In this document: piece by piece, positions 17,012-23,320 of the stretch
Numbering within the stretch: the stretch's first letter is position 1
Layout of the letters: each line of letters starts with the position of its first letter
From: Phycisphaeraceae bacterium
GTDB taxonomy: Bacteria > Planctomycetota > Phycisphaerae > Phycisphaerales > UBA1924
Assembly: GCA_019636625.1 (NCBI GenBank)
Contig: JAHBXE010000003.1
Span: 62,001 to 126,000, forward strand
Direction: 5' to 3'
DNA length: 64,000 nucleotides
Made by a program: the position numbers and the translations under genes
The notes under the pieces: model-generated
Databases searched by the model: none
The model's input: only the letters and a program-made list of their open reading frames with translations
Told to the model about the DNA's origin: nothing

Positions 17012-18568
17012 TCAGACTCCCAGCTTCTTCTTGACGTATTCGCTGACGGCGTTGATGGCGATGCGCTCCTGCCCCCCGGTGTCGCGGTCGCGGACGGTGA
17101 CGGTCTGGTTGGTCAGCGTCTCGCCATCGATGGTGAAGCAGAAGGGGCAGCCGGCCTCATCCATCCGGGCGTAGCGCTTCCCGATGGACTGCTTGGCGTC
17201 GGTCTCGATGAACCCCGTGCGCCCGAACTTCGCGTTCAACTCGTCGTAGAGCCTCTCCGCCACCTCGGGCATCCCGTCCTTGTTCACCAGCGGGAACACC
17301 GCGGCCTTGATCGGCGCGATCCGCGGGTGGAACTTCATGATCTCCGGCGAGGGACGCGACGGGTCCTTCGTGTACGCCTCGCACATGATCGCCAGCGCCC
17401 CGCGATCCAGCCCCGCGGCGGGTTCGATGCAGTGCGGCATGTAGCGCTCGCCCTTGGTGCTGCCGTTGGGGAGTTTCTCGCCGCGCTCCTGGTCGAAGTA
17501 CTCGAGTTTGACCTTGCTGTGCTCCTGGTGCTGCGTCAGATCGAAACATCCGCGATGGGCGATGCCCTCGAGTTCCCCGAAGCCGGGCGCGGTGAACGGG
17601 AAGCGGTACTCGACGTCGGACGTGCCCTGCGAATAGTGCGAGAGCTCATCCTTCTCGTGCTCGCGGAGGATCAGGTTCTCCCCCTTGAGACCGATGGACT
17701 GCCACCACTCCATGCGGAAGTCTCGCCAGAACTTGTACCAGTCCTGTGATTCGGAGGGATGGCAGAAAAACTCGAGCTCGGCCTGTTCGAACTCGCGGGA
17801 GCGGAAAGTAAAGTTGCGGGGAGTGACCTCGTTGCGGAAGGACGTTCCTGTGTTCCCGATGCCGAAGGGCACCTTGACGCGCGTCGTGTCCACCACATTC
17901 TTGAACTGGACAAAGATGCCCTGCGCGGTCTCCGGCCGGAGGTAGGCCTTGTCGTCCTCGGTCGCGGTGGCACCGATGTAAGTCTTGAACATCAGGTTAA
18001 ACTGGCGCGGCTCGGTCAGGGTACCGACCTTCTCCGCATCCGGCCCCAGAACCTTGGCGAACTGTTCGACCGGAATGCTCGTCAACGGAACGACCTTTAC
18101 AGCTCCGAACGCCCTTTCCGCCTTCTTCTGCTGCTTCGCCTCGCTGGGCGAATCCTTCATGAACGCAAAGAGTGGCCTTTCCCCCGCATCACCGCTGGCC
18201 GGGACAAACACACTCACGTGATCGAAGCGGTAGCGGGCCTTTGTCTCGCGGCAATCCACCATCGGATCGTTGAACCCCCCTACGTGCCCGCTCGCTTCCC
18301 ACACCTTCGGGTGCTGGATGATGCGCGTCTCGAGCGGCACGCAGCGCACCCGCTCCCCGTTGGGCCCCTTGCGCCCCCAGCACGGGTTCATGATCATGTC
18401 CTGCCACCACGCATCCCGCAGGTTCTTCTTGAGCTGCGCCCCCAGCGGGCCGTAATCCCAGAAGCCGTTGATGCCCCCGTAGATCTCGCTGGCCTGGTAG
18501 ACAAAGCCCCGGCGCTTGCACAGGGCCATGATCTCATCCATCGACTTGGCGGGGGTCGCCTCGGACAT
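17012..18568 (-). CDS. glyQS: Glycyl-tRNA synthetase, alpha2 (single-chain) type
   Basis: This 518-residue class II synthetase starts at ATG 18568. Motif-like regions are clear: the N-terminal KRRGFVYQASEIYGGINGFW and DYGPLGAQLKKNL, motif 2 around SFRNEVTPRNFTFRSREFEQ, and motif 3 in PHCIEPAAGLDRGALAIM. The C-terminal anticodon-binding domain follows (KFHPRIAPIKAAVFPLVNK onwards). It charges tRNA-Gly. This is the eukaryote/archaeal-like alpha2 enzyme rather than the GlyQ/GlyS heterotetramer. A methyltransferase gene follows immediately on the same strand; dps is divergent. Confidence 0.95.
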   Translation of the reverse strand: MSEATPAKSMDEIMALCKRRGFVYQASEIYGGINGFWDYGPLGAQLKKNLRDAWWQDMIMNPCWGRKGPNGERVRCVPLETRIIQHPKVWEASGHVGGFNDPMVDCRETKARYRFDHVSVFVPASGDAGERPLFAFMKDSPSEAKQQKKAERAFGAVKVVPLTSIPVEQFAKVLGPDAEKVGTLTEPRQFNLMFKTYIGATATEDDKAYLRPETAQGIFVQFKNVVDTTRVKVPFGIGNTGTSFRNEVTPRNFTFRSREFEQAELEFFCHPSESQDWYKFWRDFRMEWWQSIGLKGENLILREHEKDELSHYSQGTSDVEYRFPFTAPGFGELEGIAHRGCFDLTQHQEHSKVKLEYFDQERGEKLPNGSTKGERYMPHCIEPAAGLDRGALAIMCEAYTKDPSRPSPEIMKFHPRIAPIKAAVFPLVNKDGMPEVAERLYDELNAKFGRTGFIETDAKQSIGKRYARMDEAGCPFCFTIDGETLTNQTVTVRDRDTGGQERIAINAVSEYVKKKLGV

Positions 18569-19429: not shown

Positions 19430-22400
19430 ATGACACAACCAGCCCCCAACCGCACGGACGACCAGCCCCCCCACCGCTACACCGCCGCGCTGGCCGACTC
19501 GATCGAGCGCCGGTGGCAGCAGGAATGGTCAAGCCGTGGAACGTTCGTGACACCAAACCCGGGTCAGCCCGGCTTTGACGCGAGCAAGCCCAAGTTCTAC
19601 TGCCTGGACATGTTCCCGTACCCCTCGGGCGCCGGCCTGCACGTGGGGCACCCGGAGGGGTACACCGCGACGGACATCATCTGCCGCTACCGGCGGATGA
19701 AGGGGTACAACGTGCTCCACCCGATGGGGTGGGACGCCTTCGGCCTCCCCGCCGAGCAGTACGCGATCCAGACGGGCGTGCACCCGGCGATCACCACGCG
19801 CAAGGCGATCGACACCTTCCGCCGACAGCTGCAGCGCTTTGGCTTCAGCTACGACTGGTCGCGCGAGTTCGCGACCATTGATGAGGACTACTACCGGTGG
19901 ACGCAGTGGATCTTCCTGCAGCTCTACAACGCCTGGTACGACCCCGCCGCCAACGAAGGCAAGGGCGCGGCGCGCCCCATCATCGAGCTGATCAAGGACC
20001 TGGAGCGGGGCGTGCACGGGATCTCCCCGATGGGCGACCTGGTCCCCGTCAAGGGCAGGCCGGGCGCTGGATTGGGCGCGATCACGGGCGAACCGGTTGG
20101 CGTGCGGATGTGGCACGAACTGTCGCAGGATGAACGCCGCGCGTTCATCGACGACCATCGCCTGGCCTACCTCGATGAGCAGACGGTGAACTGGTGCCCG
20201 AAACTGGGGACGGTGCTGGCCAACGAAGAAGTCATCGACGGCAAGAGCGAGCGCGGCGGCCACCCGGTGTACCGGCGGACGCTCAAGCAGTGGATGTTCC
20301 GCATCACGGCGTATGCGCAGCGCCTGCTGGATGACCTGGCCGGCCTGGACTGGCCCGAGTCCACCCGCACGATGCAGACGGAGTGGATCGGGCGGAGCGA
20401 AGGGGCGGAGGTGAACTTCCCGCTCCAGGGTGGCCTGCCGCTCCGCGGCGGGCGCAAGTCCGGATCGACGCAGGGTCCCGCTTCGGCATCCGTCGCCGAC
20501 GTCGTGCGAGCGCTCCATGAGCCTTCGCGGTACGCGTGCCATCCGATCGGGTTCGTCGGGCTCGATCCCTACCCGCCGGGAACGTACGGACCCGTACGCG
20601 AGCTGGTCGTCAAGCGTCGCGAACTCCCGCACCTGACATTGCCGGGCGCCACCTACTTTGTCACCTGGAACGCCGTCGACCACGAACACTTCACCGATCA
20701 CGAGCGCGACGTCATTCTCGACGCCCTGCTGCACTTCGACGGGGTCCGGTGCCGGGTGTACGCGGCGACGGTCATGTCCAACCACGTCCACTGGATCGTG
20801 CGGCCTTTCGACGGATTCACGCTCGACTCCCTCGTGTCGAGCATCAAGCACTTCGCCGCGACCACCATCAACAAGGGGAGGACTGTCAAGTCGCATGTGT
20901 GGCAGCGCGACCACTTTGACCACATCATCCGTGATCAGCAGTACTTTGATGAGTTTGTCCGGTACATCGTCTTCAACCCGGTTGAAGCGGGTGCGGTGCG
21001 TGAACCACACGAGTATCGCTGGACGTTCGTTCACGCGAGCACGATGGGGGCAGACGCTGAAGATGCGCCCGCCGCGGAGCGGCAGGCCACCCAAAGGCAG
21101 GAGTGGCCCGACTCCCTGACCATCTACACCACCCGGCCCGACACCATCTTCGGCGCCACGTACATGGTCATCGCGCCCGAGCACCCCCTGGTGGACCGGC
21201 TCCTGGCCGATCCCCGTCACCCGAACCTCGCGGAGATCGGGGCCTACGTCGCCGCGGCCCGCAACCGGTCGGACGTCGATCGCATGGCCGAAGGCAAGGA
21301 CAAGACGGGGGTGTTCAGCGGCCTGTACGCGACCAACCCGGCGACGGGGCATCACGTGCCGGTGTGGATCGCGGACTACGTGCTGATGGGCGTCGGACAC
21401 GGCGCGATCATGGCCGTCCCTGCCCACGATGAGCGCGACTTCGAGTTCGCGGTGAAGTTCGGGCTTCCGATCCGCGATGTGGTCTACCCGCGCGTCGTCG
21501 CGGCGATGCAGTACTTCACCCGGCACGCGCAGGATAATCAGAAACTGCCGGACACCTGGACGACCGTACTGGCGGACATGCTGGGCCTGGTCACCTCCAC
21601 CAACACCCCGCCGGAGAAGTTCGACGAGGTCCTGAAGATTGTCTCCTCGCGACGGCGCGGCGGAGAGACGCTGGCGGTGGACGTCAACCCGCGTATCGCC
21701 CGCGAGGAGCAGGAGCGGGAAGTCCACGAACGCCGCGGCGTGACACGTATGGCCTGGCTCGACTTCATCGAGGAGCAGGGCTTTACGACGTTCGAGGCGA
21801 TGCAGGAACGGTTCAACGCCGCGACGTTCCAGAAGCAGGAGGGGGCGGCGTTCACCGGCCCGGGGTTCGCCTCGAACTCCGCAAACAACGAGGTGTCGCT
21901 CAACGGGTTGACGACCGAGCAGGCCAAGGTACGCATTATTGAGTGGCTGGAGCGAAAGGGGATCGGCCGACGGAAGACCAACTTCAAGCTCCGGGACTGG
22001 CTCTTCTCACGCCAGCGGTACTGGGGCGAGCCGTTCCCCATCGTGTACGACGAGCGGGGGAACCATTACCCGGTTGATGAGCGTCACCTGCCCGTGAAGC
22101 TGCCGGAGGTCAAGGAGTACAGGCCCCCGGAATCGGACGATCCGGCGCCGATGCTGGCCGCCGCGGCCTCGTGGCTGCACACCACGGCGGGCCAGGCCGG
22201 CGTATCGCCCGGCGCCCTGCCGCCGGAGACCAAGGTCCGTCGCGAGGCGAACACGATGCCCAACTGGGCGGGCTCGTGCTGGTACTACCTGCGGTTCTGT
22301 GACCCGAAGAACGGCGGATCGTTCGTGGGGCGCGAGGCGGAGCGGTACTGGATGGGGCAGAGCGGCGTGGACCTGTACATCGGCGGGTCGGAGCACGCGG

Positions 22401-23320
22401 TGCTGCACCTGCTCTACGCCCGGTTCTGGCACAAGGTGCTCTTTGACCTCGGCCATGTCTCGACCTCGGAGCCGATGCGGAAGCTGTTCCACCAGGGCCT
22501 CATCACCAGCTTCTCGTACCAGCGCCCGGACAAGACGCTGTGCCCCAACGACACGGCCGAAGAAGTCTCCGACGGGAACTTCGTCGAGCGCGGCACGGGT
22601 GTCAAGCTCACACCCGTGATCGCGAAGATGTCCAAGACGCTCAAGAACGTGATCAACCCCGACGATGTGATCGCGGAATACGGCGCCGACACGATGCGGC
22701 TCTACGAGATGTACATGGGCCCACTCGACGCCAGCAAGCCCTGGAACCCGCGCGACATCACGGGGTGTTACCGCTTCCTGCAGCGTGCCTGGCGGCTGGT
22801 CGTCAACGAGGCGACAGGACAGACCAATCTCGTGGAGCAGCCCGATGACGCGATCGAGCGGGCCCTGCACCGGCTCATCGCCAAGGTCGGGCCGGACATC
22901 GACCGCCTGGCCTTCAACACGGCGATCGCGGCGATGATGGAGTTCGTGAAGAACGCCGGGGCGGGCGAAGGAAAGGCGGCGCTGACCCGTTCGCAGGCCG
23001 AGCGCTTCACGCTGGTCCTGGCGCCCTTTGTGCCCCACCTGGCGGAAGAGCTCTGGCAGAAGCTCGGCCACGCGGGGAGCCTGGCGTACGAACCCTGGCC
23101 GGCGCACGACCCGGCGATGCTGGTGGACTCGCACATCGAGATCCCCATCCAGATCATGGGCAAGGTCCGGGGCCACATCACCGTGCCCGCCGGCACCGAC
23201 GCGAAGGCGATCGAGGCCGCGGCTCTCGCCGAGCCGCGCGTGAAGGCGTTTACCGAGGGCAAGACGATCAAGAAGGTGATCGTGGTGCCGGGGAAGATGG
23301 TCAACATCGTGGCCGGGTGA
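19430..23320 (+). CDS. leuS: Leucyl-tRNA synthetase with in-frame REP-associated tyrosine transposase insertion
   Basis: This 1296-codon frame contains a complete LeuRS. The HIGH-type HVGH is at residues 71-74, the editing-domain TTRPDTIFGATYMV near 567, the editing aspartate segment VPAHDERDFEFAVKFG near 665, RDWLFSRQRYWGEP near 858 and KMSKT at 1066-1070. An anticodon domain and the C-terminal GKVRGHITVPAGTDA segment follow. Between residues 333 and 555, at the entry to the CP1 editing domain, about 221 residues are not LeuRS but a complete Y1/HUH transposase domain flanked by inverted repeats. Even without it, the protein would be about 1075 residues, longer than the roughly 860 of E. coli LeuRS. 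Two further lineage-type insertions lie near residues 165-225 and 690-800. No other leuS is visible, so the enzyme must work with the insertion unless it is removed at some level. Confidence 0.93.
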   Translation: MTQPAPNRTDDQPPHRYTAALADSIERRWQQEWSSRGTFVTPNPGQPGFDASKPKFYCLDMFPYPSGAGLHVGHPEGYTATDIICRYRRMKGYNVLHPMGWDAFGLPAEQYAIQTGVHPAITTRKAIDTFRRQLQRFGFSYDWSREFATIDEDYYRWTQWIFLQLYNAWYDPAANEGKGAARPIIELIKDLERGVHGISPMGDLVPVKGRPGAGLGAITGEPVGVRMWHELSQDERRAFIDDHRLAYLDEQTVNWCPKLGTVLANEEVIDGKSERGGHPVYRRTLKQWMFRITAYAQRLLDDLAGLDWPESTRTMQTEWIGRSEGAEVNFPLQGGLPLRGGRKSGSTQGPASASVADVVRALHEPSRYACHPIGFVGLDPYPPGTYGPVRELVVKRRELPHLTLPGATYFVTWNAVDHEHFTDHERDVILDALLHFDGVRCRVYAATVMSNHVHWIVRPFDGFTLDSLVSSIKHFAATTINKGRTVKSHVWQRDHFDHIIRDQQYFDEFVRYIVFNPVEAGAVREPHEYRWTFVHASTMGADAEDAPAAERQATQRQEWPDSLTIYTTRPDTIFGATYMVIAPEHPLVDRLLADPRHPNLAEIGAYVAAARNRSDVDRMAEGKDKTGVFSGLYATNPATGHHVPVWIADYVLMGVGHGAIMAVPAHDERDFEFAVKFGLPIRDVVYPRVVAAMQYFTRHAQDNQKLPDTWTTVLADMLGLVTSTNTPPEKFDEVLKIVSSRRRGGETLAVDVNPRIAREEQEREVHERRGVTRMAWLDFIEEQGFTTFEAMQERFNAATFQKQEGAAFTGPGFASNSANNEVSLNGLTTEQAKVRIIEWLERKGIGRRKTNFKLRDWLFSRQRYWGEPFPIVYDERGNHYPVDERHLPVKLPEVKEYRPPESDDPAPMLAAAASWLHTTAGQAGVSPGALPPETKVRREANTMPNWAGSCWYYLRFCDPKNGGSFVGREAERYWMGQSGVDLYIGGSEHAVLHLLYARFWHKVLFDLGHVSTSEPMRKLFHQGLITSFSYQRPDKTLCPNDTAEEVSDGNFVERGTGVKLTPVIAKMSKTLKNVINPDDVIAEYGADTMRLYEMYMGPLDASKPWNPRDITGCYRFLQRAWRLVVNEATGQTNLVEQPDDAIERALHRLIAKVGPDIDRLAFNTAIAAMMEFVKNAGAGEGKAALTRSQAERFTLVLAPFVPHLAEELWQKLGHAGSLAYEPWPAHDPAMLVDSHIEIPIQIMGKVRGHITVPAGTDAKAIEAAALAEPRVKAFTEGKTIKKVIVVPGKMVNIVAG
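20428..20456. repeat. Left terminal inverted repeat (REP-like) of the leuS insertion
   Basis: This 29-nt sequence begins GGGTGGCCTGCCGCTCCGCG and is the exact reverse complement of 21064-21092. Internally it forms a small hairpin, GCCGC-TCC-GCGGC, behind a GGGTGG head, the layout of a REP sequence recognised by a RAYT. Related palindromes with the same head and CGCTCCGCGG core occur at 37969-38029. Confidence 0.85.
20429..21091 (+). mobile_element. RAYT (REP-associated Y1/HUH transposase) element inserted in frame in leuS
   Basis: The element spans 663 nt (221 codons) between the LeuRS segments ending GAEVNFPLQ and starting QRQEWPDSLTIYTT. It encodes LPHLTLPGATYFVTWNAVDH, the HUH motif NHVHWIV (His at residues 452 and 454), VWQRDHFDHIIRD and YFDEFVRYIVFNPVEAG, whose Tyr at residue 512 is the likely nucleophile. 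These are the conserved blocks of IS200/IS605-type REP-associated tyrosine transposases. The ends are perfect inverted repeats that resemble REP palindromes. The whole element, including both ends, is open in the LeuRS frame; the transposase has no upstream in-frame ATG of its own, so it is made as part of LeuRS or from a GTG start. Confidence 0.9.
21064..21092. repeat. Right terminal inverted repeat (REP-like) of the leuS insertion
   Basis: The sequence is an uninterrupted 29-nt reverse complement of the left end at 20428-20456. In the LeuRS frame it reads ...APAAERQAT. Together the two ends form a REPIN-like pair with the transposase between them. Confidence 0.85.

Follow-up and report, generated by a model that had tools for sequence, protein, structure and literature searches.

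The window (the whole 64,000-nucleotide stretch of DNA analysed here) comes from a genome of 3.7 Mb in 41 contigs with 94% completeness, hereafter G000, and contains a leucyl-tRNA synthetase (LeuRS) gene within whose frame a REP-associated tyrosine transposase (RAYT) and its two flanking REPs are embedded, with the following features:

19430 to 23320, forward strand: leuS, one open frame of 1296 aa for leucyl-tRNA synthetase with an embedded RAYT, the sole leuS found in the genome
20428 to 20456, forward strand: left REP, a 29-nt inverted arm with GTGG foot and hairpin, translated GGLPLRGGR
20534 to 20602, forward strand: N-terminal RAYT extension (ACHPIGFVGLDPYPPGTYGPVRE), of a type shared with LeuRS, MiaA, Kbl and some ValRS copies
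20603 to 21031, forward strand: RAYT core, an HUH Y1 transposase domain
20783 to 20791, forward strand: HUH motif, His452-Val-His454
20963 to 20965, forward strand: Tyr512 in the YIVFNP motif, the putative catalytic tyrosine by homology
21064 to 21092, reverse strand: right REP, an inverted copy of the left REP, translated APAAERQAT in the leuS frame
21119 to 21145, forward strand: LeuRS resumes with TIYTTRPDT, the start of the CP1 editing domain (Thermus thermophilus 1h3n residue 243 onwards)

The initial annotation had described an in-frame block with perfect 29-nt inverted ends, intact HUH and tyrosine motifs and complete LeuRS motifs on both sides, all of which was borne out. The arms are 29 nt each and 100% complementary, His452-Val-His454 and Tyr512 are invariant across the 11 LeuRS fusions aligned, and the LeuRS motifs HVGH (71-74) and KMSK (1066-1069) are both present in the fusion. 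The 663 nt of 20429-21091, equal to 221 codons, are in frame with leuS as first given, with the correction that the repeats reach one base beyond each end (20428 and 21092). Each arm consists of a GTGG foot and a CCTGCCGC-TCC-GCGGCGGG stem-loop, and this 21-nt hairpin occurs only twice in the window with up to three mismatches allowed (0.06 occurrences expected). Pfam assigns the leuS product to LeuRS families and Y1_Tnp, and the insert is matched by the NCBIfam model for REP-associated tyrosine transposases (NF047646) at 89.8 bits against a cut-off of 80. The insertion point lies between residues 238 and 243 of T. thermophilus LeuRS (1h3n), in a short variable turn ahead of the TTRPDT of CP1; uninterrupted LeuRS relatives (22 measurable of 25) have a WIGRSEG-TTRPDT spacing of 28-42 aa, as against 234-328 aa in the 15 carriers with the insertion at this turn, two further carriers having the RAYT elsewhere. 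A second long stretch of the CP1 region without T. thermophilus counterpart was seen at 21490-21840, and a frame close to leuS on the other strand (17012-18568) presumably encodes a glycyl-tRNA synthetase, judging by eye. A second intact leuS, which had been envisaged as a counter-argument, was sought throughout the G000 genome and only the one leuS was found; because the genome holds this single copy, the fusion LeuRS should retain activity.

A search of G000 for the element ends in coding genes, as had been suggested, found 16 REP units with at most three mismatches, ten of them exact and two of these exact units being the ends of the leuS element, while a control search with the reversed pattern returned none in the same genome. 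Fifteen of the 16 units are hairpins translated in frame within coding genes, as in intragenic REPs and REPINs, and are spread over 11 genes; the sole non-genic unit is close to the 5' end of an astA-like frame and probably precedes its start. Five of the 11 host genes encode tRNA synthetases (LeuRS, ValRS, TyrRS, ThrRS and MetRS), a striking share as a bare count, and the others encode MnmG (GidA family), a tRNA pseudouridine synthase, an asparagine synthase, a GH63-like hydrolase, an inositol monophosphatase family protein and an FtsX permease. A tRNA-related bias of these hosts was also observed at the ValRS, TyrRS, ThrRS, tRNA pseudouridine synthase, MetRS and MnmG loci (L003, L005, L010, L013, L019 and L038). 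Inverted REP pairs occur in three genes besides leuS. The 29-nt REP is stop-free in all six frames, the six sense units all share a single reading phase (GGLPLRGG), and six of the ten antisense units share one phase (PAAERQAT or a variant). The leuS element thus has the GTGG-footed flanking REPs, with copies elsewhere in the genome, that characterise a RAYT; the leuS insert departs from the usual arrangement, in which a RAYT forms a separate gene clear of other coding sequence. Four other RAYT matches of G000 (C1:437188, C1:582478, C5:1024 and C12:90704) occupy frames of 199-382 aa; no unit among the 16 lies on or near these sites.

Across 61 searched genomes, leuS was present in all 61 and a RAYT match (E 1e-20) in 15, and 18 of the 19 RAYT matches of this first search lay inside the frame of another gene: LeuRS in five (G000, G025, G008, G012 and G033), ValRS in seven, RdgB in five and MiaA in one. 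NCBIfam confirmed the RAYT in the MiaA case and in one each of the ValRS and RdgB cases. A profile built from the 18 embedded copies (A1), every member of which matches NF047646 (18/18), was used for the order and class searches. In 400 genomes of the order it gave 86 matches in 73 genomes, of which 75 are in frame in housekeeping hosts, namely ValRS (37), RdgB (19), LeuRS (16), Kbl (1), HscA (1) and MiaA (1), a proportion that describes the A1 clade and not RAYTs overall; at a few of these loci (L218, L233 and L275) the contig ends and only one flank is visible. The tRNA synthetases account for 53 of the 75, and 14 of the 16 LeuRS copies are at the CP1 turn, the other two being at the loop preceding VDLYIGG. 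The remaining 11 matches are free-standing or unassigned; one of them sits at the end of a contig and another contains masked bases. In the G008 leuS (L052), an in-frame TAA lies upstream of the RAYT in a tandem REP-like repeat (GTSDLRAD), and this genome has a second leuS N-terminal fragment on contig C33, so that L052 is possibly broken or misassembled.

At the class level, 71 of 397 genomes were matched by A1; among 57 class loci, which overlap partly with the named-record set and from which ten weaker matches were left out, both flanks match a host reference in 27 and one flank in nine, mostly PurH, IleRS, LeuRS and ValRS. Pfam added glycine dehydrogenase (GcvP), RarA/MgsA, two helicases and DNA methylases as hosts, together with a C-terminal RAYT fusion to ThiD2-ThiE. 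Four loci (L315, L319, L322 and L325) have the RAYT at the C-terminus of a ThiE-type-looking protein, the ThiD2-ThiE assignment being confirmed by Pfam for L319 only. Among named records, embedded copies extend beyond the phylum to Verrucomicrobiota (RecG, MetH and AlaRS), Armatimonadota, Chlorobiota and Proteobacteria (methylases), and the named record closest to the window's element belongs to Phycisphaerae MAG 8_bin.68, with 59% identity. One Verrucomicrobiota RAYT lineage was observed in RecG, MetH and AlaRS (L145, L159, L162, L166, L178, L180 and L189). The insertion is not unique to this strain, a possibility that the initial annotation had raised, but is found in LeuRS, ValRS, RdgB, IleRS, PurH and other hosts in many genera. 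An assembly or binning artefact, to which the derivation of the window from a 41-contig genome might lend some credit, has a negligible probability: the arrangement was found again in dozens of separate assemblies, some with one or two contigs (G099, G326, G051 and G093), and this recurrence rules out an artefact for the class as a whole.

When the general family model NF047646 was run against 294 genomes of the phylum, seven of the best 150 matches, the window's copy among them, lay in frames of at least 400 aa. This count is taken from the best 150 of a larger number of matches, ending near 88 bits, and under-counts embedded copies because these score only approximately 69-93 bits, the list thereby favouring free-standing lineages. 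Since the best general-family matches are mostly outside long frames, embedding is a property of certain RAYT lineages. This bears on a neutral account of the data, namely that RAYTs insert at random, that the in-frame insertions in tolerant loops survive, and that the clade has no adaptation to protein interiors. The variable length of the turn at the first LeuRS site (28-42 aa spacing in empty proteins) would fit such an account, as would the sequence next to the element ends, where only a weak pyrimidine-rich signal is apparent upstream of the GT[AG]G foot and no target motif is claimed. It is nevertheless improbable given that 143 of those 150 phylum RAYTs are outside long frames under the same filter, that only one of the 16 REP units of G000 lies outside a coding gene, and that all six sense REPs share one reading phase. 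The initial annotation's proposal of an element suited to being inserted and read through within an essential enzyme, at the CP1 entrance, is supported.

The RAYT tree contains 97 embedded copies, defined as the rows not labelled free, with ten labels assigned by cluster or by eye and that of L143 doubtful; the tree omits four divergent loci (L239-L242) as well as the G029 match. The HUH motif and tyrosine are intact in 93 of the 97, the four exceptions comprising one copy at a contig end, one truncated in the match and two with substitutions. For 11 of 15 pairs with usable dS, embedded RAYTs gave dN/dS values of 0.067-0.203 (NG86, dS 0.06-1.7, rough), several pairs sharing a member; the omitted pairs were a free-standing pair (0.118), one with a dS of 0.01 and two with saturated dS. 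These comparisons demonstrate purifying selection, as read from substitution patterns, on the RAYTs embedded in relatives. Inverted arms (score of at least 18) flank 84 of the 97 embedded copies and are perfect in 37, many of these flanking REPs bearing a GT[AG]G foot, and the 13 copies without a clear inverted pair are mostly in DNA methylase genes. In 28 of the 97, no ATG, GTG or TTG intervenes between the 5' repeat and the conserved LPH motif, and therefore some embedded RAYTs can hardly be produced other than as a fusion. An ATG is present there in 32 of the 97, and some possible start codon in 69 of the 97 as against 19 of 22 free-standing copies; in the window's copy a single GTG is present, which lacks an SD-like sequence. 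The combination of an ATG with an SD-like sequence was found in two of the 97 embedded and two of the 22 free-standing copies, a measure that does not discriminate between them.

Structure prediction of the fusion had likewise been suggested at the outset: the LeuRS fusion model (11 sequences) was poor overall, with a mean pLDDT of 49.7, but all 14 ten-residue blocks of the RAYT at 401-540 reached 72-90. All 50 Foldseek matches listed for this model were LeuRS or LeuRS editing domains. In the model of a relative's RdgB fusion (five sequences, mean pLDDT 61.9), the RAYT is folded and tied to two long RdgB strands via low-confidence linkers (139-174 and 321-357) that include the REP-encoded peptides, and Foldseek matched this model to both RdgB (1k7k) and TnpArep (4er8, TM 0.67 by target). 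The same TnpArep structure, 4er8, is the top PDB sequence match of the clade profile (E 1.7e-10).

Comparisons within genera revealed different RAYTs in closely related host genes. The ValRS loci of G137 and G174 are 82% identical at the DNA level along 3.9 kb leading up to the element, and align again downstream, with RAYTs of different lineages that share 39.6% amino acid identity. Similarly, the insertions in the LeuRS genes of G351 and G217 begin at the same nucleotide, between flanks with 93% (upstream) and 89% (downstream) identity, but the RAYTs share 79 of 143 residues and the REPs differ, no inverted pair being detected for the G351 copy. A sister relation of these two RAYTs was not rejected by the AU test (p 0.192), and the argument for a swap at this site therefore rests on the contrast in identity. 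Identity between RAYTs hardly correlated with that of the N-terminal flanks, at r values of 0.20 for LeuRS (100 pairs), 0.24 for ValRS (630) and 0.33 for RdgB (171). On the RAYT tree, the copies sort by host gene (22 label changes, as against 73.9 in shuffles), with MiaA and Kbl RAYTs nested within the LeuRS RAYT lineage, and RAYT presence on the LeuRS host tree requires nine changes, at least six of which are forced by well-supported branches, compared with 13.6 when shuffled and a value as low in two of 500 shuffles. This clustering by host gene and on the host tree indicates that, as far as the trees reflect history, part of the distribution is inheritance, besides turnover. Taken at the level of alignments and phylogenies, the data demonstrate that elements have been gained, swapped and moved between hosts.

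The recurrence of different RAYTs at the same nucleotide position could reflect a homing-like element that spreads mainly by same-site gene conversion between strains, the RAYT nicking the empty allele, with rare jumps to new genes, likened to an intein endonuclease without protein splicing. The sorting of RAYT lineages by host gene points the same way. In the ValRS genes of G099 and G278, which are of the same genus, a segment of approximately 720 bp with one difference runs from the left REP to approximately 150 nt beyond the right REP, and other blocks align at 72-87%. This resembles a clean transfer of the element, but the whole ValRS locus is a mosaic (windows of 60 nt range from 0.39 to 1.00, and some distant blocks reach 0.90-1.00), and the segment fits element transfer or ordinary recombination alike. 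Further, scarcity of tolerated loops could by itself yield recurrence at a site. Homing of this kind is judged rather unlikely as the principal mode, and would be a sharper form of the explanation preferred below, compatible with it, and not its competitor.

The same turnover bears on possible functions for the host. The initial annotation had raised a new editing-domain function and a link between RAYT expression and leucine supply, both of which appear unlikely because the clade resides in unrelated hosts, is present in leuS in only five of the 61 genomes searched, and has been swapped for other RAYTs at the same site. More generally, a RAYT might have been co-opted as an accessory domain for a host function such as nucleic-acid binding, editing or regulation, with its mobility long lost. 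Purifying selection with conserved catalytic residues, the host specificity of RAYT lineages and the bias towards tRNA synthetases (53 of 75 embedded copies in the order, five of 11 REP host genes of G000) would all be compatible with such domestication, but the absence of the RAYT from leuS in most relatives searched, the diversity of unrelated hosts (e.g. RdgB, PurH, RecG and MetH), the RAYT swaps at one site and the perfect REP ends render it very improbable.

The explanation favoured with considerable confidence is a mobile REP-RAYT-REP element, belonging to a clade whose members reside inside housekeeping proteins as internal domains and whose niche is the variable loops of essential proteins. 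Under this explanation the RAYT would be synthesised within the LeuRS polypeptide, would fold into a distinct HUH domain on flexible REP-encoded linkers, and would cut REP hairpins in single-stranded DNA, guided by the GTGG foot, pasting copies of itself and of short REP units at other places. The insertions that survive would be only those that keep the frame, in tolerant loops, with the enzyme still working. Once in an essential gene, the element would be expressed with its host and be hard to lose, sheltered because frame-breaking deletions there would be lethal.

Inteins and homing endonucleases are mobile in-frame insertions in conserved essential genes that recur at particular sites and are protected from loss. 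The present element resembles them in being in frame, mobile, recurrent in its sites and presumably protected from loss, and differs in that the insert should stay in the mature protein and is an HUH transposase rather than a homing nuclease; Pfam found no splicing domain in the LeuRS fusion, only the tRNA synthetase families and Y1_Tnp.

Its affinities are with the REPtron/RAYT (TnpAREP) systems described in passages of PMC3733652, PMC6006769 and PMC8266576, with which it shares the HUH Y1 transposase (NF047646, with 4er8 as best PDB match) and flanking inverted REPs, although the RAYTs known from those passages are genes of their own and here the transposase is an internal domain of a housekeeping enzyme. 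Passages of PMC8266576 describe TnpAREP as recognising and cutting single-stranded REP, with the GTAG tetranucleotide helping to choose the cleavage site and GTGG tolerated in one case. REPs are mostly extragenic by the usual description, in contrast to the nearly all genic units of G000, and intragenic REPs, like Rickettsia palindromic elements, have been described as palindromes inserted into coding genes, those for tRNA synthetases and repair proteins among them; those are short palindromes, whereas here the transposase is inserted too, its ends being the genome's in-frame REP sequence, and the passages concerned mention no whole RAYT in a host frame (PMC3733652). According to PMC6006769, REPs have been found inserted in tnpAREP genes without disruption of the frame, and in at least this one survey unexpectedly long proteins of the transposase superfamily were discarded as fusions or annotation errors. 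Intragenic REPs are thus already known, and no paper on whole RAYTs as internal domains of host enzymes was found in the literature searched, which comprised titles and abstract starts of open-access papers without bioRxiv, subscription papers being mostly missing from it.

Transposons are expected to avoid essential coding sequence. The clade described here is a transposase clade found mostly in essential coding sequence, where it forms an additional domain in tRNA synthetases and further core enzymes, with cases in several phyla. It may tentatively be proposed, at somewhat less than an even chance, that it represents a class of transposable element whose normal habitat is the interior of essential proteins, translated only as a domain of the host enzyme, with stop-free hairpin ends, and propagated by same-site conversion and rare jumps, for which essential enzymes would serve both as expression platform and as shelter from deletion. 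The clade shows a possible route to expression and persistence for mobile DNA, may supply conserved enzymes with new insertion domains, and offers a testable parallel with inteins, minus the splicing.
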